From contig RPFO01001284.1 in assembly GCA_009746045.1 (NCBI GenBank), forward strand, positions 177,392 through 241,391: a stretch of 64,000 nucleotides of DNA, written 5' to 3'. Position numbers and translations under genes: made by a program. The DNA comes from Mesostigma viride (lineage: Eukaryota > Streptophyta > Mesostigmatophyceae > Mesostigmatales > Mesostigmataceae). The first letter of the stretch is position 1; each line of letters begins with the position of its first letter. The notes beneath the pieces were generated by a model, which did no database searches, was not told the origin of the DNA, and saw only the letters and a program-made list of their open reading frames with translations. Of the stretch, positions 1,941 to 61,300 are shown piece by piece.

Positions 1941-26282
<24,342 letters not shown>

Positions 26283-30727: not shown

Positions 30728-31539
30728 GCTAGGTGCCCATAATCATGGTGTATAATCATGCGTTGTTAGCATCTTGCCACCATTTGCTAGCATGCATTCC
30801 AGCGTCATCTTTGCCTGCATGTAAGCTCATGGATCACTCAACCTATCCAAGCCTTGCATTACACATGCCTCTTTCTTTCAGTATTGCACACGTTATGGAA
30901 TGAAAACCCAGTGCCTCCCTTCCCACGAGGCATGTGCTCAACAGTTGTGAGAGTGGATGATGCTTTGGCTATGGCTGCCTGATTCAGTCATATTATGTCA
31001 TCCAGTCATGATGTTTGATGCATGTTTGATGCTGTATAACTTATACAACACCAATTTTCAACGTTTTGACCCTCCTAGCTCATGATATCCCCGTTTATGG
31101 GGCTCGTGTCGTTGGGTCATGTTGTGAAGGGCTCCCATTTTTCCCACTGCGTTGTACTGCGTTGTAATTGTAATGCTAATAAAAAATAGCTCCAGTGGCC
31201 CAATGGGCCTGAGTTTTGTTTCACAGAGCCTGCATATGTTGCCCATAGCTCGTGCAAGAAGCCAGATTTTTTTCATGAACCATTTGTGAATAAGCACATG
31301 ACTTGTGACCTAGGGTCAACAAATCGCGGTCATGGTCAGACCCCCCTGTATTCAAACCAGTGTATCTCTCTAATGAATTAGCATTTTGTAGGTCTAAGTA
31401 GCTCAAAAAATCCTTTGATTTATGGGCTTTCAGGAAAGTATACACATGACTATGAAAAAAAATTTTCCCTAGATGTTATGACGTGTTCTATAAATAGCTT
31501 ACAACGCAGTATATCGCGTTCTAAAAAAAACAACACGGG

Positions 31540-41376: not shown

Positions 41377-42311
41377 TAGATTGGTTGAATATAGTTCGTT
41401 TTCGGCTAGGAGGCGTGGCCTTTGCATGACGGGCAAGAGGATTTCAGCCGTGGGCAACCAAGCACACATGTCGTCGGGCTAGTCCGACGAGTGCGCACGT
41501 GAACCGGCACTCCCGGTCACACACGACACCATAGAGATAGTCAGCTGCACCGCCTCATGTCGGCGAAACCCATAGTTCCATCGGAATCGTTTCAGCGGCC
41601 GGCATTTCCTCTCCGCGTTTCCTCAACCTCGTTTTCAGGATCATACTCATCGTTCCTGCATTTTCCTCTTCCACGCAGGTTGTGGCTTTTTTGAAAGCCA
41701 CGAATGTACCCGGGGATGGGACGCTTCGGCTGCCTCAATGCCTACACATTCAATACGATGTCCCCCTCTCACCTTCCTCCATCATTCCGCTCACATTGCA
41801 CTACGTGTCTGTGTTTTGTTCTTTTTCTTGTTCTCGTTTGTTTTGCTGTTCTTGTCCTTTTTCTTTTACTTTTACTGAGGGAGCTAGGCTGGGCTGCGCG
41901 CTGTGTGTGCTACTCTCGTGTTTTTCTGTGGGCACTTGAGAGACTAACCAAGGATCGGGCCCCCCACACGGCAATATCAGCCTTTGCTTTTGTTTACCCT
42001 CCCATATCTCTTTACAAACGCCAAAAAAACACAAAGGCAGGAGCACGGTGACTCATCTGGAACATGAAGAAGGGAAATCTTTTCGTTACAGGAAAGAGGT
42101 GTCAAGTATGACAATTGGAAGGCCCCCCCACTGGGAATCCACATGTTCCGAGTCCATTCAGCTGTGTTGTTAGCCACATCCTGCCCCGGGGAGATGCATC
42201 ATGGACCACCGCTATCGCGTAACGGGTGTTACGCAGTGAATATTGACTTACCTCAATATGCTCCGCTCTGGTTCTGTTTGATGTCTTAGCTCTCAGTGCA
42301 TCTGAATCATC

Positions 42312-45300
42312 ATGAAACACCTTATGACTTTCTGGCATGCTCTTACCCTCCACAGAATACGGCAATCCAGTGGCATTGATTACCGGAAGTACACTGCTAT
42401 TTCTCGGCAGTTCCCCTATCGTATCTCCTCACAGGCATGGCGGAAGCGTTGTCGCATCAACACGCGCCATAACCATCACTGCAAGGATGACCATACTCTA
42501 CGTCGCCTCCGGCGCTTACAGCGCACGCATTTGTCGCTTACCAACTCCACTCGCCCACACCCCGTAAGCACCCATCGCGTCATTTATGCCATTTACAACC
42601 GCAGGTACCCTCAGCGTATCTACGTTGGCCAGACGCAACGGGATGCCTGGACGCGTTTTCAGGAACATGTCCGAGCGGCACGCCGCCTTCATATTGGCCG
42701 CCCTGCCGCCAACGACGACACCCCCCTACATGGCGCCATGGCCCAATACGGGTGGTGGGATTGGCGAGTCGTCCCCTTGGAACATGTCCCCGGCACCTTT
42801 ACCGGCGCCGCTTTTCGCAAAGCCGCAGGGCATCGGGAAACGTTTTGGAAACGAATGTTACATGCATTTCTGCCCCACGGTTTTTGCATTGAAGGCAAGA
42901 GTTTCAAAGCTCGGTCTCGCCGCCGCCCGCCTCCCCTCCGTCCCCGCCCTCTTATGTTCATCCGTGCCTGGCGTCTGAAGCACAATCTCCACCCATATCG
43001 CCCCTATCCCCCCAGCGTCACCCCGGCCCCTCCACCTTCCACACATGTGTCCACCGATCCTTCCCTTTACTCCACCAGTCTCCGCTGCTTACGTCACATG
43101 TCTCGGCTTATGCAACGCGGCAACTTTCATGCATCCTATCTCGAAGCCTGCAGCTTGAAGAAGCTTACCAGCTTACACATTGCCGTCGGGTCGTGCTCCC
43201 CAGCTGATCTGCAAGTCCCCCGCTCCCATGCCACTAGTCTGCGAGGCCTTCTCTCACGTATCATTCGGCACCGTGTCAATGGGAATGCAGATGCACTGCG
43301 TCCGCGCCGTTTGCTGATCTCACCTTTCATTCATGCTGCGATGGATGAGCTGTGTTTGCCACACATTCTGCATTTGCCGCAAGTGCAGGCTGCGATGCCG
43401 CTCGTGGTGCGCAACACTTTCGGCACTCCCATTGCTGCCTGGCATTACTCTCCCACCTTGGGACAAATGGTTTTCAGCAACGGGAAGGTCAGCCGCGATA
43501 CAACGCCCACCGAGCTGGCCACCATCTTGGCAGGGCCCTGCCCCTGCCAACAACAACGGTATTTCAAGTACCTTGATCCCACCTCACAGCACGTCATGAC
43601 CGCTGACCTCAGCATCCTGCCGAGCCACACGCTTGTAGACCTTTTTGCCAAAGGCACCAAGTTTCGGCCGTGGGTCCAGCGCACGTGTGCCAAAGAGGTG
43701 AATGCACTGCTCTCCACATCACTGCGCAAATTTTGCAATGCCATGAGCACGGACCTACAGCTTGCTCCCCTTGCCATGGAACCGTGGTTTCGCGCCGTCA
43801 TTCACGAATGCAATGCACGTCTCACCAGGCTTGATTACCGTCTCCAGCAGGTCCACCGCACCACCTGGCTCAACACCACAGATAAAGCACTTCTTGACCA
43901 CTTCAAGCAGGACTTTATCATCACGTGTGTTGACAAGAGTGCCAACAACTTTGCTTTCATATGCAAGAAGCACTACCTTGCTACTTTGCAACACGAGTTG
44001 GCGTCCAGCCCTACCTATGTTCAGCGTGCACAGTCCACCGCCAGTATCACCGCTGCTCATCGGGCTTTTCTGCACAGCCAAAACATTTTTGCTCGGGCAT
44101 TCCTTAAGCGGCAGCGACGCGCCACCACCACTACGTTCCCATATCTGTATCTCACTCTTAAGCTGCACAAAACTCCTGTTGCTTTGCGCACCATTGCTGC
44201 GTCGCATTCAGCCCCACTGATGCCTCTCTCGAAACTCATCTGCCATGCTTTGAATGCTCTTCTCCCCGAAGCCAATGCATTATGGGTGGAGGTGCTGTCG
44301 AATGCCGGGTATGAATGCGCTGGTAGTTGGATCGTCATAGACTCAGCCCAAGTACGCCTACGCCTTGCCGCCCTTAGCCGTTCTAAGACAGCAGCAGAGA
44401 AACGTATACCTATGCCCATAGCCACCTATGATTTCACCACTCTATATACCACACTAGATTTGCACGATTTGAAAGCTCGTTTAGATAGCCTCCTTACTCG
44501 TCTGTATGCACGTAGGCCTCACGGGCGCAACCACCTGCACGTGCGTGTTTCTCAGACCAAGCCCACGGCAACGTGGCTCTCAGGGATCGCGGCAGGTGCT
44601 ATCGTGCGGGATGGTTATAATTATATTATCACGAAGGCTGACCTTGTCCATTGGATCTCTTATCTTGTTGATAACACCTTCATCTGTTTTGCGGGCAATG
44701 TATACCAACAAGCTATCGGCATCCCTATGGGCACTAACTGTGCCGGGCTCCTTGCAAACCTCTATCTATACACTTATGAGCTTGCATTCATGGAGAATCT
44801 CATTGCCTCAAACGATGATGTTCTCATCAGGCGTTTTATCCATACATGTCGATACATTGATGATGTCATCGCTTTCGACAACCCTGATTTCGCAACCCAT
44901 TTGTATATCACCGCTGGTCTGCCTGGCATCTACCCGCAAGCGTCCCTCACATTAAAGCTCACGTCGGAGGATACTCATTGCAATTACCTCGATCTTAACA
45001 TTACCCATAACAAGAAGGGCTGGCGTACGGCTATCTATGATAAGCGCAAGGATCCTAAATACCAGCAAATTCCTTTTATTCGTTACCCCGATATTCACAG
45101 TCTCCTTTCCCACACAGCAAAATATGGTGTTGTTCTTTCTCAGTTACATCGTTTTTCCCGTCTTTGTTCTTATCGTGTTGATTTCATCACGACTCTTGTT
45201 GAACTCTTGCAGCGTTTATTGGTCAAAGACTATGACCGAGCCATTATGCTCCGTCAAGTCCGATGTTTTTTGCAACGTCACCCACATCTGTTCGGTGCTG

Positions 45301-45368
45301 CCCCTTGGCACAAGCTCTACAAACAGGTCGTGGACCGGCTGGATCGCATAGTATCTCCGCACATCTGA
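42312..45368 (+). CDS. Penelope-like reverse transcriptase with N-terminal GIY-YIG endonuclease
   Basis: The ATG at 42312 opens a frame of 1018 codons with no interruption. Residues about 88-150 hold the GIY-YIG module: IYAIYN then IYVGQT (variants of GIY and YIG), followed by RFQEH with the conserved Arg and a later Glu (PLEHV). The central part has CVDKSANNFAFICKKHY, matching the conserved DK motif at the N-side of Penelope reverse transcriptases. The catalytic palm follows: YDFTTLYTTLDL, IPMGTNCAGLLANLYLYTYE, and CRYIDDVIAF with the YIDD box near residue 847. Then YLDLNI and DKRKDPKYQQIPF complete the fingerprint. It nicks target DNA and copies its RNA into the site. A minus-strand overlapping frame at its end is probably a shadow. 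Confidence 0.93.
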   Translation: MKHLMTFWHALTLHRIRQSSGIDYRKYTAISRQFPYRISSQAWRKRCRINTRHNHHCKDDHTLRRLRRLQRTHLSLTNSTRPHPVSTHRVIYAIYNRRYPQRIYVGQTQRDAWTRFQEHVRAARRLHIGRPAANDDTPLHGAMAQYGWWDWRVVPLEHVPGTFTGAAFRKAAGHRETFWKRMLHAFLPHGFCIEGKSFKARSRRRPPPLRPRPLMFIRAWRLKHNLHPYRPYPPSVTPAPPPSTHVSTDPSLYSTSLRCLRHMSRLMQRGNFHASYLEACSLKKLTSLHIAVGSCSPADLQVPRSHATSLRGLLSRIIRHRVNGNADALRPRRLLISPFIHAAMDELCLPHILHLPQVQAAMPLVVRNTFGTPIAAWHYSPTLGQMVFSNGKVSRDTTPTELATILAGPCPCQQQRYFKYLDPTSQHVMTADLSILPSHTLVDLFAKGTKFRPWVQRTCAKEVNALLSTSLRKFCNAMSTDLQLAPLAMEPWFRAVIHECNARLTRLDYRLQQVHRTTWLNTTDKALLDHFKQDFIITCVDKSANNFAFICKKHYLATLQHELASSPTYVQRAQSTASITAAHRAFLHSQNIFARAFLKRQRRATTTTFPYLYLTLKLHKTPVALRTIAASHSAPLMPLSKLICHALNALLPEANALWVEVLSNAGYECAGSWIVIDSAQVRLRLAALSRSKTAAEKRIPMPIATYDFTTLYTTLDLHDLKARLDSLLTRLYARRPHGRNHLHVRVSQTKPTATWLSGIAAGAIVRDGYNYIITKADLVHWISYLVDNTFICFAGNVYQQAIGIPMGTNCAGLLANLYLYTYELAFMENLIASNDDVLIRRFIHTCRYIDDVIAFDNPDFATHLYITAGLPGIYPQASLTLKLTSEDTHCNYLDLNITHNKKGWRTAIYDKRKDPKYQQIPFIRYPDIHSLLSHTAKYGVVLSQLHRFSRLCSYRVDFITTLVELLQRLLVKDYDRAIMLRQVRCFLQRHPHLFGAAPWHKLYKQVVDRLDRIVSPHI

Positions 45369-45956: not shown

Positions 45957-46436
45957 ATGCTTCGTAACACGCGCGGGAGCGGCAGCGGGAGCGGGGCGGG
46001 AGCGGGGGATGGCGGTGGTGAGGCAAGGGCGGATACGGGAGGCCCCGCCAGCGTCGTGCCAGAGGGACAGGCAATCCCAACGGCAGAGGGCGCCAATGGC
46101 AGGAGGGCATCCATCCGGAAGAGGAAGGAGGTGGCACAAGGGGAGGAGCGTGCGGGGTGGCCAACCGACGGCGTGGTGCTGACGGGGGAGGGCCAGGATG
46201 ATGCTGAACGTCAAGGCCCGGGTAAGAGACCACGTGTGCCTGATGCTGGTGTCACTCCACCTGCAGCTAGTGTTCCTGCGCCATTAGCACCGGTAGGAGC
46301 TGCCCGTGTTGGTCTGTACGGCAGTACGGGGTACTCGGTAAAACCCTTGCGTACTGTAAAAATACAGGTAATAATTTTTGCGAGGGGTCAAAAATACGCG
46401 AAAAAATACGCAGTACGGCATACGGGGTATTTTTGA
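45957..46436 (+). CDS. Unrecognised open frame, possibly a retroelement gag-like remnant
   Basis: A 159-codon frame rich in Gly, Ala, Ser and Arg, with a basic patch (RRASIRKRKEV). There is no zinc knuckle or known domain. Its place, upstream of a protease and reverse transcriptase on the same strand, would suit a gag start, but the last 40 codons run through the TACGGGGTAT repeats and are unlikely to be coding. Confidence 0.25.
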   Translation: MLRNTRGSGSGSGAGAGDGGGEARADTGGPASVVPEGQAIPTAEGANGRRASIRKRKEVAQGEERAGWPTDGVVLTGEGQDDAERQGPGKRPRVPDAGVTPPAASVPAPLAPVGAARVGLYGSTGYSVKPLRTVKIQVIIFARGQKYAKKYAVRHTGYF

Positions 46437-46500
46437 AATTGTGCTAAAAAAGTACGGGGTATTATTGAGGCCAAGGCTTAAAGTACGGGGTATTCTAAGG
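46310..46500. repeat. Interspersed TACGGGGTAT direct repeats
   Basis: TACGGGGTA occurs about four times (near 46326, 46421, 46453 and 46485), with related GTACGGCAGTACG and GCAGTACGGCATACG variants between. The spacing is irregular, as in a protein-binding or subterminal transposon array. Confidence 0.6.
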
Positions 46501-46520
46501 ATGTGTGGCCCTGCATCCAA

Positions 46521-48255
46521 CAGTGTTTCTGCTAACGGGCCGCGCGCGGCCACATGTGGCCGCCGGCCGCCGGATTTTGGGGCCCGCGGTCACACGTGGC
46601 CGTCGCATTTCGGTGGCCGCGATCACATGTGGCCGCGGGATTTTCAGTGGTGGCCGCGACCACAGGCCTACAAATAGTCTTGTGACCGTGGTCACTTCTG
46701 GCTGCGGGTTGCACTCAATTGTTAGAGTGCCCATTGGACGGTCAGTTGTAACTTCGAGGGTTGTGCTGAAATTGTCAGAACCAAAATTCCCAAGTACAGA
46801 GAGTTGACTGAACAAAATTCAGCCTTCCTTGGTTTATTGCTGAAATCAGATATTTTCTAGTGACTAGTATCCGCGTTCCGAGGACTGCCTAATAGATTGG
46901 TGCCGACGTTGCCAACCTGGCTCAAGTCTCAGCCATACCTACCTAGAGTCTACTGTAGAGCCTGCACCTCAACGTGCTGCGATGAATTATTGTAGCTGCT
47001 GCAACGGTCGACAGTGCGGCAAAGCCAGTATGGCTGACGATTTCGTAGACATGATGCTAGGTTTTGTTGCTGGATAAAACTTAGTAATTAATATTATCAG
47101 TGGAAACGCATAGCAAATTTAGAGCCGATAGCGGCTAGCCCTGCTTTGGGGGATTTTGCTTGCCTTGGCCTGAAATGCGAACCTGTCGGCTAACGGGACA
47201 TTTAACATGCCCGCGGCCAGCAACAATAGGAAAGAGTCTAGTGCAGGAGCGTCCGCCGCAGGCAGACCTAAAGGTATATTAGCGTGGCTCGTGCCAAAAC
47301 GTACACTTTCTCGGCCACGGTATTTGTCTGAGCCACGATCACCATCTCGATCCTCTCATTCGTCTGGTAAAGCTGGCCGCAGCCTCCCTGGCGATGCCAT
47401 GCCGGAAGCAGTGCCTGATCCGACGCCATCGTCAGGGCGCATCTACCGCCGCCTGGGAATCTGAGTAATGTCGAAGCTAGCCGCAATTCTGAATCTCACG
47501 ATAAGAATAGCGGGACAAGCTCTGGGTCGTCTCTGACACTCACGTCCGCATTCTGACGATATTGCTCGGAATTCAGGTCATGGAAAGCATCGCCGTTTTC
47601 AACCTAGTAAACCTACATAGCACTTGCCAGTTGCCCGGCCAATGGCCAATTGGCCATGCCCTCGAGTTTTGGCCCATGTGGCATGTGTGACTTCACTTCA
47701 TCACTTGTTACGGCGTAATCTAAATCTACTATTGTCGCTAGCTGTTAATTTAATGGTTTGACAGTCCTCAATCCTATCGTGCACATTGGATATCGCACTG
47801 TGCCTTCTGAAGGGAGTGAAGGCTGTAACTGTAGTAATAAGATCAATTCCGGCCTGGATTCATTTGCAGATCGCGTTTTCCGCGGACCGGCACTGAACGC
47901 AAATGGTTTTCACCTTTGCGGCGTGCCAAATCAGAATAGTAATAAGGGCTGTAAGGCCATAAGCCCGTCAGGCATAATATTTGCCTTAACAGTGCCTGCC
48001 ATTATTAATCCACGTCCCACCTAACAATGCCTATATAATGGTATAGCAAACCCGGCCCCCCCCCTCCCCATTCCCCAATACAAAGCCGACCTAGGCTAAG
48101 CACTCAATGGAGTGTATAAGACATCTTGCTTGCAACAAAGCTATGTTGAAAGGTGCGACCGCGGGATTTTGGTGGCTGAGGTCACATTGACCGCAGGATT
48201 TTGGGAGCCGTGGTCACACGCGACCGCAGCCCAAAAACCCTTAGCAGAAACACTG
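46521..48255. mobile_element. hAT-like element with 15-bp inverted ends
   Basis: CAGTGTTTCTGCTAA at 46521-46535 faces its exact reverse complement at 48241-48255. Both ends are followed inward by repeated GGTCACANNTGGCC-like and GGATTTT motifs, i.e. inverted subterminal repeats. CAGTG-type ends with such motifs are common in hAT transposons. I could not see the expected 8-bp target duplication (GCATCCAA against CTGGGCGC), and no transposase is recognisable, so the class assignment is tentative. A short exon-like frame begins at ATG 47207. Confidence 0.5.
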
Positions 48256-48369
48256 CTGGGCGCCCATGCCGGGTGACGTCGAGATCAACGCTGTGGAGGC
48301 TACCAAAGGCAAGCAGGCACGCAGGCCGCTTTCTTTTCAGCAGGCACCCATGTTGCCTGCCGGGCACTG

Positions 48370-49440
48370 TTGCCCGCGTCCTTTTCCATGCCGCTGGCTG
48401 GGGTGCAATCTGCTTTTGAGCATGCGAACCCTGCTGGGCTGGAGCAGCGTAGGCGATTGGCGCCTGTGTACCCAATGCCGTTCATTGTGGACGTACCCAT
48501 GTTTTCAGCACGGCAGGTGGTCGACACCTTCGGGCAGAAGGGGGTTGAGTGGCTGGGGTCGGTTGTGTCCGAGATCCAGTTGTTCGCAGATGGGCATGAT
48601 GTGCGCACCTTGCGCAATTCTGAGTCCGTCACCCACGGGCGTCAGCCGGTAGAAGCCGCAGTGCCCGTGGTGCAAGCGGGAGTGGTCAGCACAAGTAGCC
48701 AGCAGCGCACTAGTGCAGTTCCCCAGGTTCCCACGGTGGTTCCATACCCCAATGGTGAGCCGTCCATAGCGTTCCAAGCAGTTGGAGCCTGTGGAGATGT
48801 ATGGAGCGACATGGTGACATGTCGATCCGTTGGTTGGCGCAGTCAAGCTTGATAGCGGTGCTCAGCCGCTAGTCATCAGCACAGACTTGGCCACCATGCT
48901 GAACCTGACCTACGAGAACGGTGGCTTAGTGGAAAGCCCCGTGTCTGTGTCAGGTTGGCAGGGTCCGGCTAGTAAGCCGTACGCTATGACGGCGGTTAAA
49001 GTCAACGTGATTTTCAATCCGTTGCGCGCCTCTAGCATGACCACCGTGTCCGCGTATGCGCTGGTGGTCAACAAGTGTGGATATTCCGCACTACTGTACT
49101 CGGGGTGGATGTCCTTGCTCGCGCCATGGTTCAGGTGGACTATAGGGCGGAGGAGGCATCTTACATCCCTGATTGGGATGGGGCTGGCCTGAAGCGGGCC
49201 AGTGTGCCGGTCTCATGCTTCAGTTTTTCAGCCGGGGCTGCACGCCTAAACCCTTCCGCGGCTGCGGGCGTGGTGGAGGTCAGCATGGTGGAGGTACGGG
49301 CGGCGGGCTCATCGGCGTGGGACAAGCATCGGACGGTGCTGCCTCAGCCAACGGCGAGCATTGCCAAGATGCGCACGCAGTGGTCGCTGGATGCTGTGAC
49401 GTCCATGCACGCGGCAGCTGGCTATGCGCAATTAAGCGGG
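48370..49440 (+). pseudogene. Retroviral-type aspartic protease region of the gypsy element
   Basis: After a Val/Gln-rich spacer, the frame at 48830 gives VKLDSGAQPLVIS, with the DSG catalytic triad codons at 48851-48859. Later comes NKCGYSALL, and in a shifted frame LGVDVLARAMVQVDY, the usual C-terminal end of the domain. A 1-bp type shift near 49095 separates them. The enzyme would cleave the polyprotein as a dimer. The upstream part is in yet another frame, so the copy is inactive. Confidence 0.75.
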
Positions 49441-49544
49441 TGACTGAAGCCGTCGTCACCGTTCCTCAGATGGCCAGCCATGGCCTCACTTTGGTGCAAC
49501 CGGGTGTCTCGGAGGCCCAAGGTAATTTTTCTGCTGCAATCTTA

Positions 49545-50565
49545 CCGCAGGCCCCTGATTTTGCCAAGGGTGCGGTAGTGTTGTTGGAACTGTTTGCGGG
49601 GATCGGAGGGGGCATTGCAGGCTTTTTGGCCGCAGGCGGCGTGTGCCGTAAACTCATCGCGGTAGAGCCATCGCACAAGGCGCGTCAGGTGTACTTCAGT
49701 CACTGTGGCGTGTTGTCGCGAGAGTATCCCGCGCAGTTTCCGCCCTCAGCATGGCGTGACCCGTTTGGGGAATGTCCTCAAGATATCCGAGCCATCGGTG
49801 AGGTGCAGGTGCAGCAGTTGTTGCGCAGGCATCATGCCATCGACTTGGTAATCGCGGGTTGGGAGTGCCAGGGCCTGAGCCAGGCAGGGCACGGGCGGGG
49901 GCTAGCCGATCCGCGTAGCGCGCTGTTCTGGGAACTGTTGCGTGTGGTGGGACTGTTGCAGTCGCGTCAGCCCCATCCGCCTGCGTATCTGTTTGAGAAC
50001 GTTGTGGCGGGTGACAGCCCACATCAGGCGGTGCGGGAGGACTGGGCTACAATGGTGGCACTCCTGGGGGAGCCCATCGTGTGTGACAACGCAGGGCTGG
50101 GTGGGCTCACGCATCGTTTGCGTGCCTATTGGACCAACGTGGCGTGTGCGACCGGTGTGCAGGCGGTCTTGGGGGCCGTAGCAAGGCAGCATCCGAGTGT
50201 GTCTGCGGAGGTAGCATTGCCTTCCCACCTAGTCACGCAGAAGGTGGATAGCGAGGATCGCCCACCGTATGCACGCGTTAACCGGGTCGGGAGCCCCATG
50301 TGTGCACTGCCGACCCTGCATGGTCAGTTACCAAGGGTCGACAGCATACCGTGATCGGGGTAAGGGTCTCGTTTGGGACACTACCACCGGTCTGTTGGTG
50401 CAGCCACCCGCAGAATTTCGTGAGGCCAGCATGGGTTTTCATGTCGGGGCCTCGGCGCTGCCGGGCGTGCTCGAGAGTGAGCGCTGGTCTTTGATAGGCC
50501 AGGCTATGTCGGTGTTGCAGGTCGGGTATGTGCTGCTTGCATCGGTTGCCGTGCGCCAGTCTGGG
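49545..50565 (+). pseudogene. C5-cytosine DNA methyltransferase domain within the retroelement
   Basis: Motif I is LLELFAGIGGGIAGFLAAGG, the S-adenosylmethionine site. Motif IV is IAGWECQGLSQAG, with the catalytic cysteine codon at 49866-49868 but Glu-Cys instead of the usual Pro-Cys. Motif VI is FENVV and motif VIII is GLTHRLRAYWTN (RxR). In the next frame, after a shift near 50315-50330, come motif IX (REASMGFHVG) and motif X (LIGQAMSVLQVGYVLL). The set covers a complete catalytic domain, and the RxR/YWTN neighbourhood recalls DNMT3-like enzymes. Such enzymes transfer methyl groups to cytosine C5 in DNA. The single frameshift makes this copy non-functional as read, unless it is corrected by frameshifting or is a sequence error. 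Confidence 0.85.
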
Positions 50566-51840
50566 GGGGCGTCCCCAGCCAATCCGCCTCAGCAGGTTGA
50601 GGCGCGTGCAGCCAAACTGAAGCGCCCTGCAGCGACGGGGACTTCATCAGCATGGGGGTGGCGTCTGCGACAGGTGTGGACTATCATTCTCATGACCGCC
50701 CTGCTGACCAGCACCGTGCTGGCCGGCGAGCCCACGCTGCATCGGGTAATACACCGGGCGGCACGCGAGGCTCCGGCGGTGGGTGTCACACCAGGTGTGG
50801 CAGCCTTTTCCTTGTTCCACGACGATGCGGCTAGGGCGCCGCATCTTGAGGCACATGCGGTAGCTGTGGGTGATCCCGCGGATACGCACCCCTGGGCTAT
50901 TGGCGAACACCTTTCTGATGCGCAGCGCTCAGCCATGCTAAAGTGGCTAGGCACTGCAAGGGGGGCCTTCGCTTTCACAAGTGATGAACTGGGGTGTTTC
51001 AATGGTGGGACCATGCGTGTTCCATTGGACACTGACACTCCTTTGTTCCGACGCCAGCATCGCCTGAGTCAGGCCGAGTTGGATTTTGTCGCCGAGCAAT
51101 GCAAGGAGTTAGAGGATGCCGGTATCATCAGGCAATCTTCCTCCAGCTATGCTGCTGCCGTTGTCGTTGCGCCCAAGAAGGACGCTATCACCGGGGCATG
51201 GACGGGTATGCGCATGGCCACCGATCTGCAGTTGCTGAATGCACACACACCCGTGGACCGTTACCCCATTCCACGTGTGGATGCTGTCTTGGATAAGATA
51301 TCTCCTCATGTGAAGTTTGTGTCCTCGCTGGACCTGCGTAGCGGCTTTCATCAGATCGCAGTTGCGTCGGAGGATCAGCGGAAGCTTGCATTCTGGGGGG
51401 GCGGCAATTTGTATGAGTGGGTGCGCATGCCGTTTGGGCACCGCAACGCTAGTGCTGTTTTCCAACGAGCTATGGACAAAGTGCTTGCAGGTCTTCCTTT
51501 CGCCGCTTGTTACATTGATGATGTAATCGTCTTTAGCGCAACATTTGAGGAGCACCTGGCGCACTTGGAGCAGGTTCGCTTGGCTCTCGAGGAGCATAAT
51601 ATGCGGCTGCACCCTGAGAAGTGCAAGTTCGCCCAGCGGACCCTCTCATTCCTTGGTCATCAGATTGTGCCGGGTGGCCGGACGCCTGATGCCGCCAAGG
51701 TCGAATCCATTGCGCAGGCCGCCGTACCCACGGATGTCTCAGGGGTGCGGGCGTATTTGGGTTTGGCTGGCTATTACCGAGGTTACATTGAGAACTTCAG
51801 CAGCAAGGTGAAGCCCTTGACCGAGTTACTCAAGAGTTAA
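50566..51840 (+). pseudogene. Ty3/gypsy reverse transcriptase, ends in a premature stop
   Basis: The frame is continuous with the end of the methyltransferase. It has the pre-RT MRVPLDTDTPLFRRQHRLS, then EDAGIIRQSSSSYAAAVVV, RMATDLQLLNAHT, FVSSLDLRSGFHQIAV, YEWVRMPFGHRNASAVFQRA and CYIDDVIVFS with YIDD (51511-51522). HNMRLHPEKCKFAQRTLSFL and the connection region AYLGLAGYYRGYIENFSS follow. The fingerprint is typical Ty3/gypsy. The frame stops (TAA 51838-51840) just after PLTELLK, where RNase H should start. Reverse transcription of element RNA is the family role. Confidence 0.92.
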
Positions 51841-51890
51841 ATAGTGCCGGAACCTTTTGCCGCCTGAGGCAAATCGGGCCGGAACACTAT
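51841..51890. repeat. 50-bp imperfect palindrome at the reverse-transcriptase break
   Basis: ATAGTG..CACTAT ends enclose imperfectly complementary arms (CCGGAACCTTTTGCC against GGCAAATCGGGCCGG). It starts immediately after the stop codon at the point where RNase H is lost. Confidence 0.7.
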
Positions 51891-51989
51891 TTTGCCCGGA
51901 ATAACCACTTCCGAGCACCCAAGTTAATTCTGAGACAACCTCAGCAATCTCAGTCCCTGCTCGCTGCCCAATTTGGTCCACGACCTCCA

Positions 51990-52241
51990 ACCGCACACAT
52001 CTCGCCGAGTCAAGGACGCCCAGTGTCAGGTTTGTCACCGGGTCGATCAGGCGGAGTCCATGTTATTGTGTGATCAGTGTAACTGTGGTTGGCACATGCA
52101 GTGTTTGCATCCAGTGGTCACCAGCATTCCGGAGGGCGATTGGTTTTGTCCAGTGTGCACCGCTGCGCAGTTTACCTCCCGCAGCTTGACTGCGGTCACC
52201 GCTGCCCTTGTCTTGGTGGGGAGGCCCACACTAAATCACTA
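51990..52241 (+). pseudogene. PHD zinc finger fragment of the gypsy element
   Basis: The cysteine/histidine pattern fits the C4HC3 PHD finger exactly: C-x2-C-x11-C-x2-C-x4-H-x2-C-x14-C-x2-C, with the Trp two residues before the seventh zinc ligand (GDWFCPVC). Positions are about 52024-52158, in the same frame as the reverse transcriptase. PHD fingers read histone H3 tails; in retroelements they may guide integration or bind chromatin. The frame stops at 52239-52241. Confidence 0.82.
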
Positions 52242-53317
52242 ATCGAAAATTACTTGGGAAATGTTGTCTCGGGCTGATGGACATGTGTGCCCCTCAATTG
52301 CGGAGTTAAATTGGATGTATAATTGAATGAAATACATTATTACATTCCATGCATCGATGCTCGAGTCATCGCGATATCTGAATATCTTACATAATTACAG
52401 ACCCATCAATTGGAAGATCAGAAAGCTCCAGTGCATCTGCTCTACGACCGGACGTCTCAATCGTACGTAGTGCTTTCGAGTTATAATTACCCTCAATGTA
52501 TGTCTGGAAAATCCACGTGCAGGCAGTGTCAAATGCATGGTATATGAACTAGTTATGTACATGTCAAGATGATGACAGTCAAGCGAGGCCATACATGTTG
52601 ACGGACAAGTGAGCCTGTAGACCTACGTCGATCCCCAGTTCCTCGATGTCGTGCGCAGCCCCGATATCATCAGATTTCCAATCCCCAACGGCCGTCGGCT
52701 CCGCAAAATCCACGTTCGCGATTAAACAGTGCAACCGCGAGGGCCGTTCTAACTTGTAATCCACCTATATAATGGGCTCCGTCTCGTCACCGTGCGTTCG
52801 CATCAACAGGACAGCCACGGGTGTCGCGACGTCTCGGACGCTGTGCACTACACGCATCATCTCGGTCATCGCAGCCGTCGAGCACGTCACAAGCATCAAT
52901 TATTCTCTGGACGAATTCTCGTGACCGTGTTGATATTAATGTCTGCCAACTTCACGACTGTGAACAGCAGCCTCACGCACGTCCGGTCCATCCGACTCCG
53001 TCAGGCGGTGTTGCGAATGGCGTCCTGCGTGCAAAAACCAGTACATGAAGGACAATAATGTTAGCCCGTTAGACAGATTTGTCTGTGGTTCCGCTTACAG
53101 CAGTACTAATCACCCGTTACGCGGATTTCGGGCAAGTGGGTATCCTCCTACATTACATGTATCCAATTATGGACGGGAGATTTAAAATGGGAAACAAGTA
53201 TCAGCGAACCCAGAATCAAGGTATCCACGCAACGGTTTTGAAGAAACGGCTATGTACATATAGACACAATGAACTGAACAAAACTTTAGTAGCTCACTCG
53301 TCGTTCACTTGTTAGTC

Positions 53318-53437
53318 GTAACGGAGGCAGTCATTCAGTCAGTTTGCAAGTTCAGTTGGCAAGTACGGAAACACACGCAAGTGCGTAACGGAGGCAGTCA
53401 GTCAGTCAGTTTGCAAGTGCAGTTGGCAAGTACGGAC
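53318..53437. repeat. 67-bp tandem duplication
   Basis: GTAACGGAGGCAGTCA and CAGTTTGCAAG..CAGTTGGCAAGTACGG occur twice, 67 bp apart, with small differences. Confidence 0.85.
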
Positions 53438-53738
53438 CACCAACCGCGTGTGTACGTCCATGATATCGCAATATAATCAAGAATAACAGGGAACGGTTAA
53501 TGTATCCTTTACGCAGCTTTTTCGTTCAGGGCATGTTGAAATAACGAAAGTGGGGTCAGGTGTTCGAACCTTCCAAGTGCCGAATTTTTTACGAACCAGC
53601 GCATTCACGAACCTTGCACTGGGGACGCGGTGGACGTGTACCATTACCCCGGCCTAATTCTAGCATTGTACACAAGGGGCGGTGGCTAGCAGTAAAGAAG
53701 GGCATCCTAGTCATAACGCTGGGCAAGTTTAAAAGCAC

Positions 53739-54570
53739 CAACGGCCGTTGAGTAGGAAAAAAAAAGAGCAGGAGAAGAGCACGTCGACGTTTCAACAGCA
53801 AGACAAAAATATTGAACCCCGAGTACCAATGAAAATGCTTTCATGCATGTCCACCCCGACGAGGCACAAATTCATGCATGCCCACCCCGACGAGGCACAA
53901 ATTAATGAACGACAGATTTCTCACCCCCCCCCGGCACATGGAACAAGTGCCATCGCACGCACACACTTTGTAGACAGGAGAGTTTCGAGAGTCCAACGGC
54001 CGTTGGCTCGGAGAAATTGACAGTACACCAGTAAAGACATTAAAATTATCACTTTGTTGTCTTATGTGTGCCGTGTCATTTCCCAAGGTCAAAAGCCGTC
54101 AACTTCTGCACCTCTTGTCCCTCCCACCCGTACGCACTAAGCATGCCCACCTTACACTACCACATGTGGCTCTTGAGAAAACTCCCCCCGACGATGCACA
54201 TGTGCCATTCACGCACACACCTTCAGACAAGGCTATCAGTTTTTCGAAGTCCAACGGCCGTTGGCTCCGAGAAATGCTGTTACAACTCAAAATTACAATG
54301 GTGACATCCACGAGCTAGTGGTACGCCGAACAAGTGCTTGTATGACATATGGCGACTGCCCGTGAGGAAAAGTCCACCACCACACACGGTCAGTTTTTTG
54401 AGTCCAACGGCCGTTGGCTCCGAGAAATGCTGTTACAACGCAAAATTACAATGGTGACATACATGAGCTAGTGGTACGCCGAACAAGTGCTTGTATGACA
54501 TATGGCGACTGCCCGTGAGGAAAAGTCCACCACCACACACGGACAGTTTTTTGACTCCAACGCAAGAACA
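53739..54570. repeat. CCAACGGCCGTTGG palindrome family and 153-bp tandem repeat
   Basis: The 12-bp palindrome CAACGGCCGTTG occurs at about 53742, 53997, 54252 and 54405, mostly followed by GCTCCGAGAAAT. From 54251 to 54556 a 153-bp unit is present twice, and a third, broken start of the unit (CCAACGCAAG) follows at 54557. Confidence 0.88.
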
Positions 54571-54897: not shown

Positions 54898-54956
54898 GAC
54901 ACCCTACACCCTACACCCTACACCCTACACCATACATCCTACAACCTACACCCTTA
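54898..54956. repeat. Degenerate telomere-like (CACCCTA)n tract
   Basis: Four to five perfect 7-bp CACCCTA units followed by degenerate ones (CATACATCCTA, CAACCTACACCCT). The complementary strand reads TAGGGTG, close to but not identical with plant-type TTTAGGG. Confidence 0.7.
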
Positions 54957-54990
54957 ACTCTCCACCCTTAGCTTACGTGACCTTTTTTTC

Positions 54991-55170: not shown

Positions 55171-55335
55171 GTGTGTGTGTGTTGTTCACGTGTGCGTGTG
55201 TGTGTTGTGTGTGTGTGTGTGTTGTGCGTGTGCGTGTGCGTGTGCGTGTGCGTGTGCGTGTGCGTGTGCGTGTGCGTGTGCGTGTGTGTGTGTATATAAT
55301 TTTTTGTTGTGTGTGTGTGTTGTGTGTTGTACGTG
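55171..55335. repeat. (GT)n and (CGTGTG)n microsatellite
   Basis: TG runs separated by single-base changes, and about ten CGTGTG hexamers at about 55225-55282, leading into the 40-bp minisatellite, whose unit contains a related GTACGTGTGTGTG segment. Confidence 0.93.
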
Positions 55336-58300
55336 CAAGGTGTATGTACATGTGTGTGCAGCCGGCCCTTGCGTGCGCGGTGTGTGTACGTTTCTGTGCA
55401 GCCGCCCCTTGCGTGCGCGGTGTATGTACGTGTGTGTGCATGCCGGCCCTTGCGTGCATGGTGTGTGTACGTGTGTGTGCAGCCGCCCCTTGCGTGCGCG
55501 GTGTATGTACATGTGTTTGCACTCGCCCATTGCGTGCGCGGTGTATGTACGTGTGTGTGCAGCCGCCCCTTGCGTGCGCGGTGGATGTACGTGTGTGCGC
55601 ACTCGCCCCTTGCGTGCGCGGTGTATGTACGTGTGTGTGCAGCCGCCCCTTGCGTGCGCGGTGTATGTACATGTGTGTGCATCCTTGTCCTTGCGTGCAT
55701 GGTGTATGTACATGTGAGTGCCGTCGCCCCAACCGTGCATTGTGTATGTACGTGTGTGTGCAGCCGCCCCTTGCGTGCATGGTGTGTGTACATGTGTGTG
55801 CATCCTTGTCCTTGCGTGCATGGTGTATGTACATGTGTTTGCACTCGCCCCTTGCGTGCGCGGTGTGTGTACGTGTGTGTGCAGCCGCCCCTTGCGTGCA
55901 TGGTGTGTGTACATGTGTGTGCATCCTTGTCCTTGCGTGCATGGTGTGTGTACATGTGTGTGCAGCCGCCCCTTGCGTGCGCGGTGGATGTACATGTGCG
56001 GGCAGTTGCCCCTTGCGTGCGCGGTGTATGTACATGTGTTTGCACTCGCCCCTTGCGTGCGCGGTGTATGTACATGTGTGTGCAGCCGCCCCTTGCGTGC
56101 ATGGTGTATGTACATGTGCTTGCACTGGCCCCGTGCGTGCGCGGTGTATGTACGTGTGTGTGCAGCCGCCCCTTGCGTGCGCGGTGTATGTACGTGCGTG
56201 TGCAGCCGCCCCTTGCGTGCGCGGTGTATGTACATGTGTGTGCATCCTTGTCCTTGCGTGCGCGGTGTATGTACATGTGTTTGCACTCGCCCCTTGCGTG
56301 CGCGGTGGATGTACATGTGTGTGCAGCCGCCCCTTGCGTGCATGGTTTATGTACATGTGTGTGCAGTCGCCGGCCCCGTGCGTGCGCAGTGGATGTACGT
56401 GTGTGTGCAGCCGCCCCGTGCGTGCATGGTGTGTGTACGTGTGTGTGCAGCAGCCCCTTGCGTGCGCGGTGTATGTACGTTTCTGTGCATGCCGGCCCTT
56501 GCGTGCATGGTGTATGTACATGTGCTTGCACTGGCCCCTTGCGTGCGCGGTGTATGTACGTGTGTGTGCAGCCCCCCTTGCGTGCGCGGTGTATGTACGT
56601 GTGTGCGCACTCGCCCCTTGCGTGCGCGGTGTATGTACGTGTGTGTGCAGCCGCCCCTTGCGTGCGCGGTGTATGTACATGTGTGTGCAGCCGCCCCTTG
56701 CGTGTGCGGTGGATGTACATGTGCGGGCAGTTGCCCCTTGCGTGCGCGGTGTATGTACATGTGTTTGCACTCGCCCCTTGCGTGCGCGGTGTATGTACAT
56801 GTGTGTGCAGCCGCCCCTTGCGTGCATGGTGTATGTACATGTGCTTGCACTGGCCCCGTGCGTGCGCGGTGTATGTACGTGTGTGTGCAGCCGCCCCTTG
56901 CGTGCGCGGTGTATGTACGTGTGTGCGCACTCGCCCCTTGCGTGCGCGGTGTATGTACGTGTGTGTGCAGCCGCCCCTTGCGTGCGCGGTGTATGTACAT
57001 GTGTGTGCATCCTTGTCCTTGCGTGCGCGGTGTATGTACATGTGTTTGCACTCGCCCCTTGCGTGCGCGGTGTATGTACATGTGTGTGCAGCCGCCCCTT
57101 GCGTGCATGGTTTATGTACATGTGTGTGCAGTCGCCCCGTGCGTGCGCAGTGTATGTACGTGTGTGTGCAGCCGCCCCTTGCGTGCGTGGTGTGTGTACA
57201 TGTGAGTGCAGCCGCCCCTTGCGTGCGCGGTGTATGTACGTGTGTGTGCAGCAGCCCCTTGCGTGCTTTGTGTGTGTACATGTGTGTGAATCCTTGTCCT
57301 TGCGTGCATGGTGTGTGTACGTGTGTGTGCAGCCGCCCCTTGCGTGCATGGTGGATGTACATGTGAGTGCCGTTGCCCCTTGCGTGCGCGGTGTATGTAC
57401 GTGTGTGTGCAGCCGTCCCTTAATTGCGTGCGCGGTGTGTGTACGTGTGTGTGCACTCGCCCCTTGCGTGCGCGGTGTATGTACGTGTGTGCAGCCGCCC
57501 CTTGCGTGCGCGGTGTATGCCAGTGTGTGTGCATGCCGGCCCTTGCGTGCAAGGTGGTGTGTAAGTGTGTGTGCAGCCCCTTGCGTGCATGGTGTATGTA
57601 CGTGTGTGTGCAGCCGGCCCTTGCGTGCATGGTGTGTGTACATGTGAGTGCAGCCGTCCCTTCCGTGCATGGTGTGTGTACGTGTGTGTGCAGTTGCCCC
57701 TTGCGTGCGCAGTGTATGTACGTGTGTGTGCATGCCGGCCCTTGCGTGCATGGTGTGTGTACGTGTGTGTGCAGTTGCCCCTTGCATGCGCGGTGTATGT
57801 ACATGTGAGTGCAGCCGCCCAAGAGTATGTACATGTGAGTGCCGTCGCCCCTAATTGCGTGCATTGTGTGTGTAAGTGTGTGTGCAGCAGCCCCTTGCGT
57901 GCGCGGTGTATGTACGTGTGTGTGCAGCCGCCCCTTGCGTGCATGGTGTATGTCCATGTGAGTGCCGTTGCCCCTTGCGTGCGCGGTGTATGTACGTGTG
58001 TGTGCAGCCGTCCCTTAATTGCGTGCGCGGTGGATGTACATGTGCGGGCAGTTGCCCCTTGCGTGCGCGGTGTATGTACGTGTGTGTGCAGCCGTCCCTT
58101 GCGTGCGCGGTGTATGTACGTGTGTGTGCAGCCGCCCCTTGCGTGCATGGTGAGTGTAAGTGTGTGTGCAGCAGCCCCTTGCGTGCGCAGTGTATGTACG
58201 TGTGTGTGCAGCCGCCCCTTGCGTGCGCGGTGTGTGTATACTGTGTGTGCATGCCGGCCCTTGCGTGCATGGTGTGTGTACGTGTGTGTGCAGCCGCCCC

Positions 58301-61300
58301 TTGCGTGCGCGGTGTGTGTACGTGTGTGTGCACTCGCCCCTTGCGTGCGCGGTGGATGTACAGGTGTGTGCAGCCGCCCCTTGCGTGCATGGTGTATGTA
58401 CATGTGTGTGCAGCCGCCCCTTGCGTGCGCGGTGGATGTACATGTGTGTGCAGCCGAACCTTGCGTGCATGGTGTGTGTACCTGTGCGTGAAGTCGCTCC
58501 TTGCGTGCATGGTGTGTGTACGTGTGTGTGCAGCCGCCCCTTGCGTGCATGGTGTATGTACATGTGAGTGCCGTTGCCCCTTGCGTGCGCGGTGTATGTA
58601 CGTGTGTGTGCAGCCGTCCCTTAATTGCGTGCGCGGTGTGTGTACGTGTGTGTGCACTCGCCCCTTGCGTGCGCGGTGTATGTACGTGTGTGCAGCCGCC
58701 CCTTGCGTGCGCGGTGTATGCCAGTGTGTGTGCATGCCGGCCCTTGCGTGCAAGGTGTGTGTAAGTGTGTGTGCAGCCCCTTGCGTGCATGGTGTATGTA
58801 CGTGTGTGTGCAGCTGCCCCTTGCGTGCGCGGTGTGTGTACGTGTGTGTGCAGCCGCCCCGTGGTTGCGCGGTGTATGTACATGTGTGTGCAGTTGCCCC
58901 TTGCGTGCGCGGTGTATGTACGTGTGTGTGCAGCCGCCCCTTGCGTGCGCGGTGTAGGTACGTGTGTGTGCAGCCGCCCCAAGCGTGCGCGGTGTGTGTA
59001 CATGTGTGTGCAGTTGCCCCTTGCGTGCGCGGTGTATGTACGTGTGTGTGCAGCCGCCCCGTGGTTGCGCGGTGTATGTACATGTGTGTGCAGTTGCCCC
59101 TTGCGTGCGCGGTGTATGTACGTGTGTGTGCAGCCGCCCCTTGCGTGCAAGGTGTAGGTACGTGTGTGTGCAGCCGCCCCAAGCGTGCGCGGTGTGTGTA
59201 CATGTGTGTGCAGTTGCCCCTTGCGTGCGCGGTGTGTGTACGTGTGTGTGCAGCCGCCCCTTGCGTGCGCGGTGTATGTACGTGTGTGTGCAGTTGCCCC
59301 TTGCGTGCGCGGTGGTTTTTCGTGTGTGTGCAGCCGGCCCTTGCGTGCGCGGTGTGTGTACATGTGAGTGCAGCTGCCCCAAGCGTGCGCGGTGTGTGTA
59401 CATGTGTGTGCAGTTGCCCCTTGCGTGCGCGGTGGATGTACGTGTGTGTGCAGCCGCCCCTTGCGTGCGCGGTGTATTTACGTGTGTGTGCAGCCGCCCC
59501 AAGCGTGCGCGGTGTGTGTACGTGTGTGTGCAGTTGCCCCTTGCGTGCGCGGTGTGTGTACATGTGTGTGCAGTTGCCCCTTGCGTGCGCGGTGTATGTA
59601 CATGTGTGTGCAGTTGCCCCTTGCGTGCGCGGTGTATGTACGTGTGTGTGCAGCCGCCCCTTGCGTGCGCGGTGTAGGTACGTGTGTGTGCAGCCGCCCC
59701 AAGCGTGCGCGGTGTGTGTACATGTGTGTGCAGTTGCCCCTTGCGTGCGCGGTGTGTGTACGTGTGTGTGCAGCCGCCCCTTGCGTGCGCGGTGGATGTA
59801 CGTGTGTGTGCAGTTGCCCCTTGCGTGCGCGGTGGATGTACGTGTGTGTGCAGCCGCCCCTTGCGTGCGCGGTGTGTGTACATGTGAGTGCAGCTGCCCC
59901 AAGCGTGCGCGGTGTGTGTACATGTGTGTGCAGTTGCCCCTTGCGTGCGCGGTGGATGTACGTGTGTGTGCAGCCGCCCCTTGCGTGCGCGGTGTAGGTA
60001 CGTGTGTGTGCAGCCGCCCCAAGCGTGCGCGGTGTGTGTACGTGTGTGTGCAGTTGCCCCTTGCGTGCGCGGTGTGTGTACATGTGTGTGCAGTTGCCCC
60101 TTGCGTGCGCGGTGTATGTACGTGTGTGTGCAGCCGCCCTTGCGTGCGCGGTGGATGTACGTGTGTGTGCAGCCGGCCCTTGCGTGCGCGGTGTGTGTAC
60201 GTGTGTGTGCAGCCCCTTGCGTGCGCGGTGATGTACATGTGTGTGCAGCCGCCCCTTGCGTGCGCGGTGTGTACGTGTGTGTGCAGCCGCCCCTTGCGTG
60301 CGGGTATGTACGTGTGTGTGCAGCCCCTTGCGTGCGCGGTGGATGTACGTGTGTGTGCAGCGCCCCTTGCGTGCGCGGTGTGTGTACATGTGAGTGCAGC
60401 TGCCCCAAGCGTGCGCGGTGTGTACGTGTGTGTGCAGCCGCCCCTTGCGTGCGCGGTGTATGTACATGTGTGTGCAGTTGCCCCTTGCGTGCGCGGTGTA
60501 TGTACGTGTGTGTGCAGCCGCCCTTGCGTGCGCGGTGTAGGTACGTGTGTGTGCAGCCGCCCCAAGCGTGCGCGGTGTGTGTACGTGTGTGTGCAGGCCC
60601 CTTGCGTGCGCGGTGTGTGTACGTGTGTGTGCAGCCGCCCCTTGCGTGCGCGGTGTGTACGTGTGTGTGCAGTTGCCCCTTGCGTGCGCGGTGTATGTAC
60701 GTGTGTGTGCAGCCGCCCTTGCGTGCGCGGTGTGTGTACATGTGTGTGCAGCTGCCCGCGTGCGCGGTGTGTGTACATGTGTGTGCAGTTGCCCCTTGCG
60801 TGCGCGGTGGATGTACGTGTGTGTGCAGCCGCCCCTTGCGTGCGCGGTGTAGGTACGTGTGTGTGCAGCCGCCCCAAGCGTGCGCGGTGTGTGTACGTGT
60901 GTGTGCAGTTGCCCCTTGCGTGCGCGGTGTGTGTACGTGTGTGTGCAGTTGCCCCTTGCGTGCGCGGTGATGTACATGTGTGTGCAGTTGCCCCTTGCGT
61001 GCGCGGTGTATGTACGTGTGTGTGCAGCCGCCCCTTGCGTGCGCGGTGTAGGTACGTGTGTGTGCAGCCGCCCCAAGCGTGCGCGGTGTGTGTACATGTG
61101 TGTGCAGTTGCCCCTTGCGTGCGCGGTGTGTGTACGTGTGTGTGCAGCCCCTTGCGTGCGCGGTGTATGTACATGTGTGTGCAGTTGCCCCTTGCGTGCG
61201 CGGTGGATGTACGTGTGTGTGCAGCCGCCCCTTGCGTGCGCGGTGTGTGTACGTGTGTGTGCAGCCGCCCCTTGCGTGCGCGGTGTGTACATGTGTGTGC

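Follow-up and report, generated by a model that had tools for sequence, protein, structure and literature searches.

A putative DNMT3-type cytosine-5 methyltransferase within the polyprotein of a Ty3/gypsy retrotransposon family of Mesostigma viride

Whether a cytosine-5 DNA methyltransferase (C5-MTase) lying among retrotransposon domains is a part of the element or a gene fragment that landed there by chance is the question raised by a locus in a 64,000-nucleotide stretch of the streptophyte alga Mesostigma viride (contig RPFO01001284.1, positions 177,392 to 241,391), which is referred to here as the window. We consider it probable that the locus represents a dead and truncated member of a M. 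viride Ty3/gypsy family whose polyprotein includes a DNMT3-type C5-MTase between the protease and the reverse transcriptase (RT), and in which this enzyme would serve to methylate the element's cDNA. Six-frame reading and Pfam place on the plus strand, between 48257 and 52242, a linker, a DSG aspartic protease, the C5-MTase, a Ty3/gypsy RT and a PHD finger, in that order. An earlier sequence-only reading of the locus had reported the protease, MTase and RT on one strand, and all three were found, on the plus strand and about where it had placed them.

The polyprotein of the window copy is split across three frames, and the MTase (Pfam PF00145, E=2.5e-12) is itself divided between two of them. 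Its motifs I, IV, VI and VIII, in the numbering that we take to apply, are held by a frame 3 open reading frame (ORF, 49173-50354): motif I is LELFAGIGGG near 49584, motif IV is DLVIAGWECQGLS, in which the codon of the catalytic cysteine (49866-49868) stands in Glu-Cys-Gln, motif VI is ENV at 49995-50003, and motif VIII is THRLRAYWTN from 50109. The part from motif IX into motif X is in frame 1 together with the RT (ORF 50233-51840, 535 codons), as had been claimed from the sequence, and this is the longest frame in the element, 500 Markov-1 simulations having given a median of 186 codons and a maximum of 451. The catalytic Cys, ENV, RLR and motif X follow one another in unrearranged order, and the motif set announced by the sequence-only reading (I, IV with its catalytic Cys, VI, VIII, IX and X) is present, with the proline before the cysteine replaced by glutamate.

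Protein searches with the MTase gave three matches, P0001, P0002 (both M. viride gene models) and P0003, and a further three, P0126, P0127 and P0128. The closest is P0126, another M. viride gene model (890 residues, 99% identity, in a cluster of 4), and its residues 186-877 align with the window at 679 of 686 residues, with 7 substitutions and several short insertions in the window, a match from which M. viride or something very close would be taken as the source of this DNA.

Layout of the element and state of the window copy

The features of the element and of the DNA that adjoins its 5' end are as follows.

46517..48259, no strand assigned: inverted-repeat-bounded element adjoining the 5' end of the retroelement, with 22-nt arms at 46517-46538 and 48238-48259 that are 91% complementary
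48257..48834, plus strand: linker on the 5' side of the protease, Gag-like only in its position; tblastn with P0126 residues 186-377 matches in frame 2 first and then in frame 1 (48370-48834), at 98% identity
48838..49096, plus strand: aspartic protease core in frame 2, DSG at 48851-48859; P0126 match, weak Pfam match, P0001 match
49097..49404, plus strand: end of the protease and linker to the MTase, frame 1; P0126 residues 460-564 at 96% identity (tblastn 49090-49404)
49422..49550, plus strand: linker directly 5' of the MTase, frame 3; start of the tblastn match to P0126 residues 568-865
49551..50318, plus strand: C5-MTase of predicted DNMT3 type, motifs I-VIII and the start of IX, frame 3; PF00145, P0126 at 98%, family profile
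50320..50553, plus strand: C-terminal part of the MTase with motif X, frame 1; tblastn matches to P0002 (50287-50679, 54%), P0127 (50314-50535, 43%) and P0128 (50314-50550, 42%)
50554..51036, plus strand: MTase-RT linker with a hydrophobic stretch after LRQVW, in the frame 1 ORF 50233-51840; P0002 reaches the corresponding WRQVW
51037..51840, plus strand: Ty3/gypsy RT, YIDD at 51511-51522; PF00078, 4ol8, Ty3-G Gag-Pol
52024..52158, plus strand: PHD finger, frame 1, 3' of the truncated Pol; PF00628, E=3.3e-10

The protease carries the motif KLDSGAQPLV, and on its own gives a weak Pfam match to Asp_protease_2 that is below the cut-off (E=0.0071); the assignment is nevertheless secured, because the protease of P0127 scores above the cut-off (2.9e-6) and the alignments of the relatives span the protease. 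The RT (PF00078, E=6.6e-27) finds its best solved chains in 4ol8 (2.5e-37), which we take to be the Ty3 RT, and then in Ty3-G Gag-Pol (2.2e-36), and by these matches it is Ty3-type. Gypsy domains for RNase H and integrase are present in many of the 120 listed of its 274 relatives, and in a tree of 26 of those listed relatives the window RT stands on a long unsupported branch, outside a clade with support of 100/100 in which the plant elements lie. Between the MTase and the RT, on the plus strand at 50680-50727, the translation contains what appears by eye to be a membrane-like hydrophobic stretch. The best solved relative of the PHD finger is that of BAZ2B (2.1e-15), and its strand, frame and distance suggest that it belongs to the element.

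The window copy is dead, in that its frames are shifted and its 5' part is cut at the inverted-repeat element, and it yielded neither an RNase H nor an integrase. Neither of these two domains appeared in the seven frames scanned with Pfam, and three gypsy polyproteins that bear them matched the element at the RT only (tblastn); within what is left of the copy, protease and RT follow in the expected order. Homology to the family begins at 48257, at the right end of the inverted-repeat pair, and residues 1-185 of P0126 have no tblastn match anywhere in the window. The inverted-repeat element has CAGTG...CACTG ends of presumably hAT-like character, and no matching duplication was seen by eye at its flanks. 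Neither LTR-like direct repeats (LTR, long terminal repeat) nor a target-site duplication were found in 46000-52700; the window copy has lost its own ends, so that this result has no bearing on intact copies.

Wherever the lengths of the window copy and P0126 differ between 48257 and 50322, the alignment shows a short insertion in the window and never a deletion, which is unusual for pseudogene decay. This one-sidedness, and the fact that just 7 substitutions accompany it over 686 aligned residues, would suit the explanation that the frame breaks are errors of sequencing or assembly and that the real frame is intact. The breaks exceed single bases in length, however, and a 1020-codon frame nearby is intact, which implies that errors are not frequent across the whole assembly; the first 185 residues of P0126, the RNase H and the integrase are missing from the copy as well, and we regard such errors as a distinctly improbable explanation.

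Relatives and the protease-MTase junction

The family proteins bear directly on whether the MTase entered this copy by accident. The predicted protein P0126, in which Pfam detects no Gag domain, runs from an N-terminal part through the linker and the protease into most of the MTase, and its gene model omits the motif X region and ends shortly after, as read from its last residues. P0127 is a protein of 1427 residues with a CCHC motif that was recognized by pattern (E=0.14 in Pfam); it and P0128 each give one continuous alignment with P0126 from the protease into the MTase (E 4.4e-56 for P0127 and 2.4e-55 for P0128). In P0001, which represents a second Mesostigma subfamily, protease and MTase are likewise in one predicted protein. 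P0002 belongs to the same second subfamily, its MTase matching that of P0001 at 96.9% over 96 residues, and it contains motif X followed by a post-MTase linker that matches the window linker up to WRQVW. Between the subfamilies the MTase, at 62.7% over 150 residues, is better conserved than the protease, for which the window and P0001 are 48.6% identical over 107 residues, a comparison at the protein level that stands in for Ka/Ks. P0126, P0127, P0128 and P0001 are therefore each a predicted protein that joins protease and MTase, and the C-terminus of the MTase is joined with the RT in one frame in the window only.

Because P0126, P0001, P0127 and P0128 share the protease-MTase junction, the fusion looks heritable, and not like a chance insertion, as far as the protein data reach. 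The sequence-only reading had allowed that other copies of the family might lack the MTase and have junctions typical of a simple insertion, and among the relatives found it is the shared junction, at the protein level, that was seen instead. The idea that a fragment of a host or bacterial MTase gene was inserted by chance into a single gypsy copy can draw on the window copy being broken and adjoining other mobile DNA, and on RT and MTase occurring together in none of the relatives found. It is largely contradicted by the junction recurring in two Mesostigma subfamilies (P0126 and P0001) and in P0127 and P0128, and a scan of prokaryotic genome contigs yielded no relative among 66 stretches matching one peptide pattern; we reject it as highly improbable.

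Class, origin and likely role of the MTase

The class of the enzyme emerges most clearly from the family taken as a whole. A profile made from 6 family sequences and compared with solved structures has DNMT3A as its best match (6.5e-20), followed by 4onj (1.2e-12), HhaI (4.1e-9), DRM2 (2.3e-8), a tRNA C38 enzyme of the DNMT2 type (2.9e-6) and DNMT1 (0.78); we take 4onj to be a DRM. P0128 by itself matches DNMT3A at 3.6e-11. The AlphaFold model of P0128 is poor (mean pLDDT 44.6) and its fold matches are for that reason only supporting; they are DNMT3-family in all 50 listed (94 at E<=0.001). The larger of two MTase trees holds 26 of 28 collected rows, L002 and L014 having been dropped because they had no core-profile match, and the smaller has 18 and includes half (10) of the 20 viral ones, both being drawn without algal or plant DNMT3 genes. 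The 26-row tree unites the family with DNMT3A/B and 7 phage enzymes in a clade supported at 99/99, from which HhaI is separate, and in the 18-row tree the family groups with DNMT3A/B (bootstrap 56, SH-aLRT 98); the five family MTases are a single clade in both (100/99 in the larger and 100/100 in the smaller tree). By profile, tree and low-confidence fold, then, the MTase is DNMT3-type. Of the trees of both domains that the sequence-only reading had in mind, that of the MTase was informative, with its DNMT3 clade set apart from HhaI, and that of the RT, with the window on its long branch, was not. A restriction-type enzyme of the HhaI kind was also considered as a candidate, and it is rejected on the family profile and both MTase trees.

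These trees leave room for a donor other than a host DNMT3 gene, namely a phage or algal virus with a DNMT3-like enzyme. Grouping of the family with six phage enzymes was not rejected (approximately unbiased test, p-AU 0.40), nor was grouping of DNMT3A/B with the same six (p-AU 0.51). P0128 is matched by 442 phage records, of which the best is 29% identical to its residues 351-663, and by PHROG 116 over residues 345-663 (5.1e-22). The best tree nevertheless puts the family with DNMT3A/B, albeit at the bootstrap of 56 noted above, and DNMT3 is on top in the profile, in the single-sequence matches of P0128 and in the fold matches among solved structures, a library that to our knowledge is without phage DNMT3-like enzymes. 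Two scans of viral contigs gave stretches that encode relatives, 5 among 28 candidates in one and 7 among 38 in the other, 25-45% identical in the best segment, and when two gypsy polyproteins were compared with the five loci of the first scan, no match was obtained. We hold a viral donor to be possible, though somewhat unlikely.

Several observations tell against our interpretation that the window derives from a gypsy family with a DNMT3-type enzyme between protease and RT. Taken alone, neither the window MTase nor that of P0126 matches any DNMT3 structure at E<=0.01, 4onj being the best match of both (3.6e-5 for the window and 0.0013 for P0126), followed by HhaI and HaeIII. P0001 is without the stretch after motif I. 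An RT domain occurs in 0 of the 6 family proteins scanned, and PF00145 in none of the 120 listed of 274 RT relatives; because no relative scanned has the RT, the link between MTase and RT rests on the 535-codon frame of the window together with the linker of P0002. Each family protein is a gene model or a predicted ORF, read at the protein level, and there is no full-length element among the window copy and the family proteins, LTRs, RNase H and integrase being unseen. Finally, the Glu-Cys form of motif IV may weaken catalysis, as judged from the sequence.

The last of these points raises the question of what the domain is kept for. The proline of motif IV is near-invariant in the C5-MTase class, and motif IV, found in 18 of the 20 viral loci, has proline in all 18. 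In the window, P0126, P0001 and P0003 it is Glu-Cys-Gln instead of Pro-Cys-Gln, so that, of the 5 family proteins that span the motif, 3 have the glutamate variant. This suggests, as the main rival for function, that the domain has lost its methylating activity and is retained to bind nucleic acid or for the structure of the particle. P0126 and the window, however, both retain the catalytic Cys, the ENV glutamate and the arginine motif of VIII, motif X is kept in P0002 and the window, and Pro-Cys persists in P0127 and P0128, and we think a purely non-catalytic role unlikely. Indeed, the natural Glu-Cys and Pro-Cys variants allow one to ask whether catalysis is what is kept.

Methylation of the element's own cDNA appears to us the likeliest role of the MTase. 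In intact copies the domain would be made within Gag-Pol, would probably be freed by the protease, and could be packaged together with the RT, after which it would act on the newly made double-stranded cDNA, methylating its CG sites either ahead of integration or soon afterwards. New copies methylated in this way would resemble resident DNA in a host with widespread CG methylation, and the modification might shield the cDNA or, through early silencing, reduce harm. In the pertinent passages of the M. viride genome paper, 5-methylcytosine is widespread and mainly in CG (PMC6947507, section 2.4.5), and LTR elements make up 27.9% of the genome (PMC6947507). De novo CG methylation is within the capability of retrotransposon DNMTs according to PMC5890265, whose Discussion names SymbioDIRS-Dnmt3, and the marking of element DNA and related roles are discussed there by de Mendoza et al. 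(PMC5890265). The use that the sequence-only reading had put forward, marking of the element's DNA, is plausible. Hosts commonly silence transposons by DNA methylation, and a transposon that keeps an MTase offers a direct test of the value of methylation to the element.

Neighboring sequence and comparison with known systems

The DNA around the element contains further mobile and repetitive sequence. At 42306-45368 on the plus strand is the intact 1020-codon frame mentioned above, with a GIY-YIG-like N-terminus and the RT motifs IGIPMGTNCA and RYIDD; it has no Pfam match and a weak NCBIfam match to group II RT (5.2e-5), and presumably it is a Penelope-like element whose N-terminus is a GIY-YIG nuclease. 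A further RT fragment (RVT_1, E=2.1e-13) at 29541-30728 on the minus strand is unmatched by the three gypsy polyproteins in tblastn. Tandem arrays are found at 9499-10321 (49-bp unit x 17) and 11985-14222 (27-bp unit x 83), and a satellite array of ~219 copies of a 40-bp unit occupies 55332-64000 and runs past the end of the window. Between the element and this satellite, a 37-nt motif recurs in five spaced copies, 70-100% alike and centred on a CCAACGGCCGTTGG-like palindrome (52673-54428), followed by ~8 copies of the 7-bp unit ACACCCT, of telomere-like look (54899-54968).

Cases in which a retrotransposon encodes a C5-MTase are known, and they have been described as independent captures in dinoflagellates and one charophyte. 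A passage of a 2025 survey (PMC12344493) also mentions DNMT3 members embedded in retrotransposons as reported from streptophytes and dinoflagellates, and gives Copia and DIRS by name. With a junction common to diverged families, a second streptophyte lineage makes the choice between one old capture and several testable. It could be proposed that a single DNMT3-type capture between protease and RT preceded the deepest split among streptophyte algae and has been inherited since, the Klebsormidium case described below and others being descendants and not captures of their own, and the Mesostigma branch having the Glu-Cys motif and a PHD reader. This we put forward tentatively, as rather unlikely; if it were true, the Mesostigma element would both read chromatin and write DNA methylation.

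The closest comparator is KnitGypsy-Dnmt3 of Klebsormidium nitens, which according to the main text of PMC5890265 has a DNMT3 domain inside the Gypsy Pol ORF, with Ka/Ks below 0.2. Like the Mesostigma element, it is a Gypsy element from a streptophyte alga whose genome has CG methylation, and its DNMT3-type domain is in Pol, but its host is of another class, Mesostigma belonging to the Mesostigmatophyceae, the two elements being compared by description and not by sequence. A PHD finger and a protease, both of which the Mesostigma element has, find no mention in that main text (PMC5890265). The sequence-only reading had stressed that the enzyme lies inside Pol and is not a separate gene; it is indeed in Pol, but this does not distinguish it, as the KnitGypsy-Dnmt3 domain is described as lying in the Pol ORF too (PMC5890265). 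In the case of SymbioDIRS-Dnmt3 from Symbiodinium, as described in the same paper, DNMT3 is again in a Pol polyprotein with RT, but the element is a DIRS with a tyrosine recombinase, whereas that of Mesostigma has a Ty3-type RT and an aspartic protease. SymbioLINE-Dnmt is also presented there as a retroelement bearing a C5-MTase, but it is a LINE with the MTase in a separate upstream ORF and of an orphan class (PMC5890265). Outside retroelements, the MTase of Pseudomonas phage Epa40 has a DNMT3-type catalytic domain (9e-31 to DNMT3B) that is co-linear with P0128 through motif X, but Epa40-like phage enzymes are stand-alone genes of ~29% identity with a Pro-Cys motif.

No report of a Mesostigma gypsy family with an MTase was found in searches of the open-access literature, the reach of which ends short of supplements, and the searched passages of the Mesostigma genome paper make no mention of an MTase-bearing retrotransposon (PMC6947507). 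A DNMT3 domain in Gypsy Pol is already published for Klebsormidium nitens, going by the main text of PMC5890265, and what is new in the element described here is the Mesostigma host, the shared junction, the Glu-Cys catalytic motif and the PHD finger.

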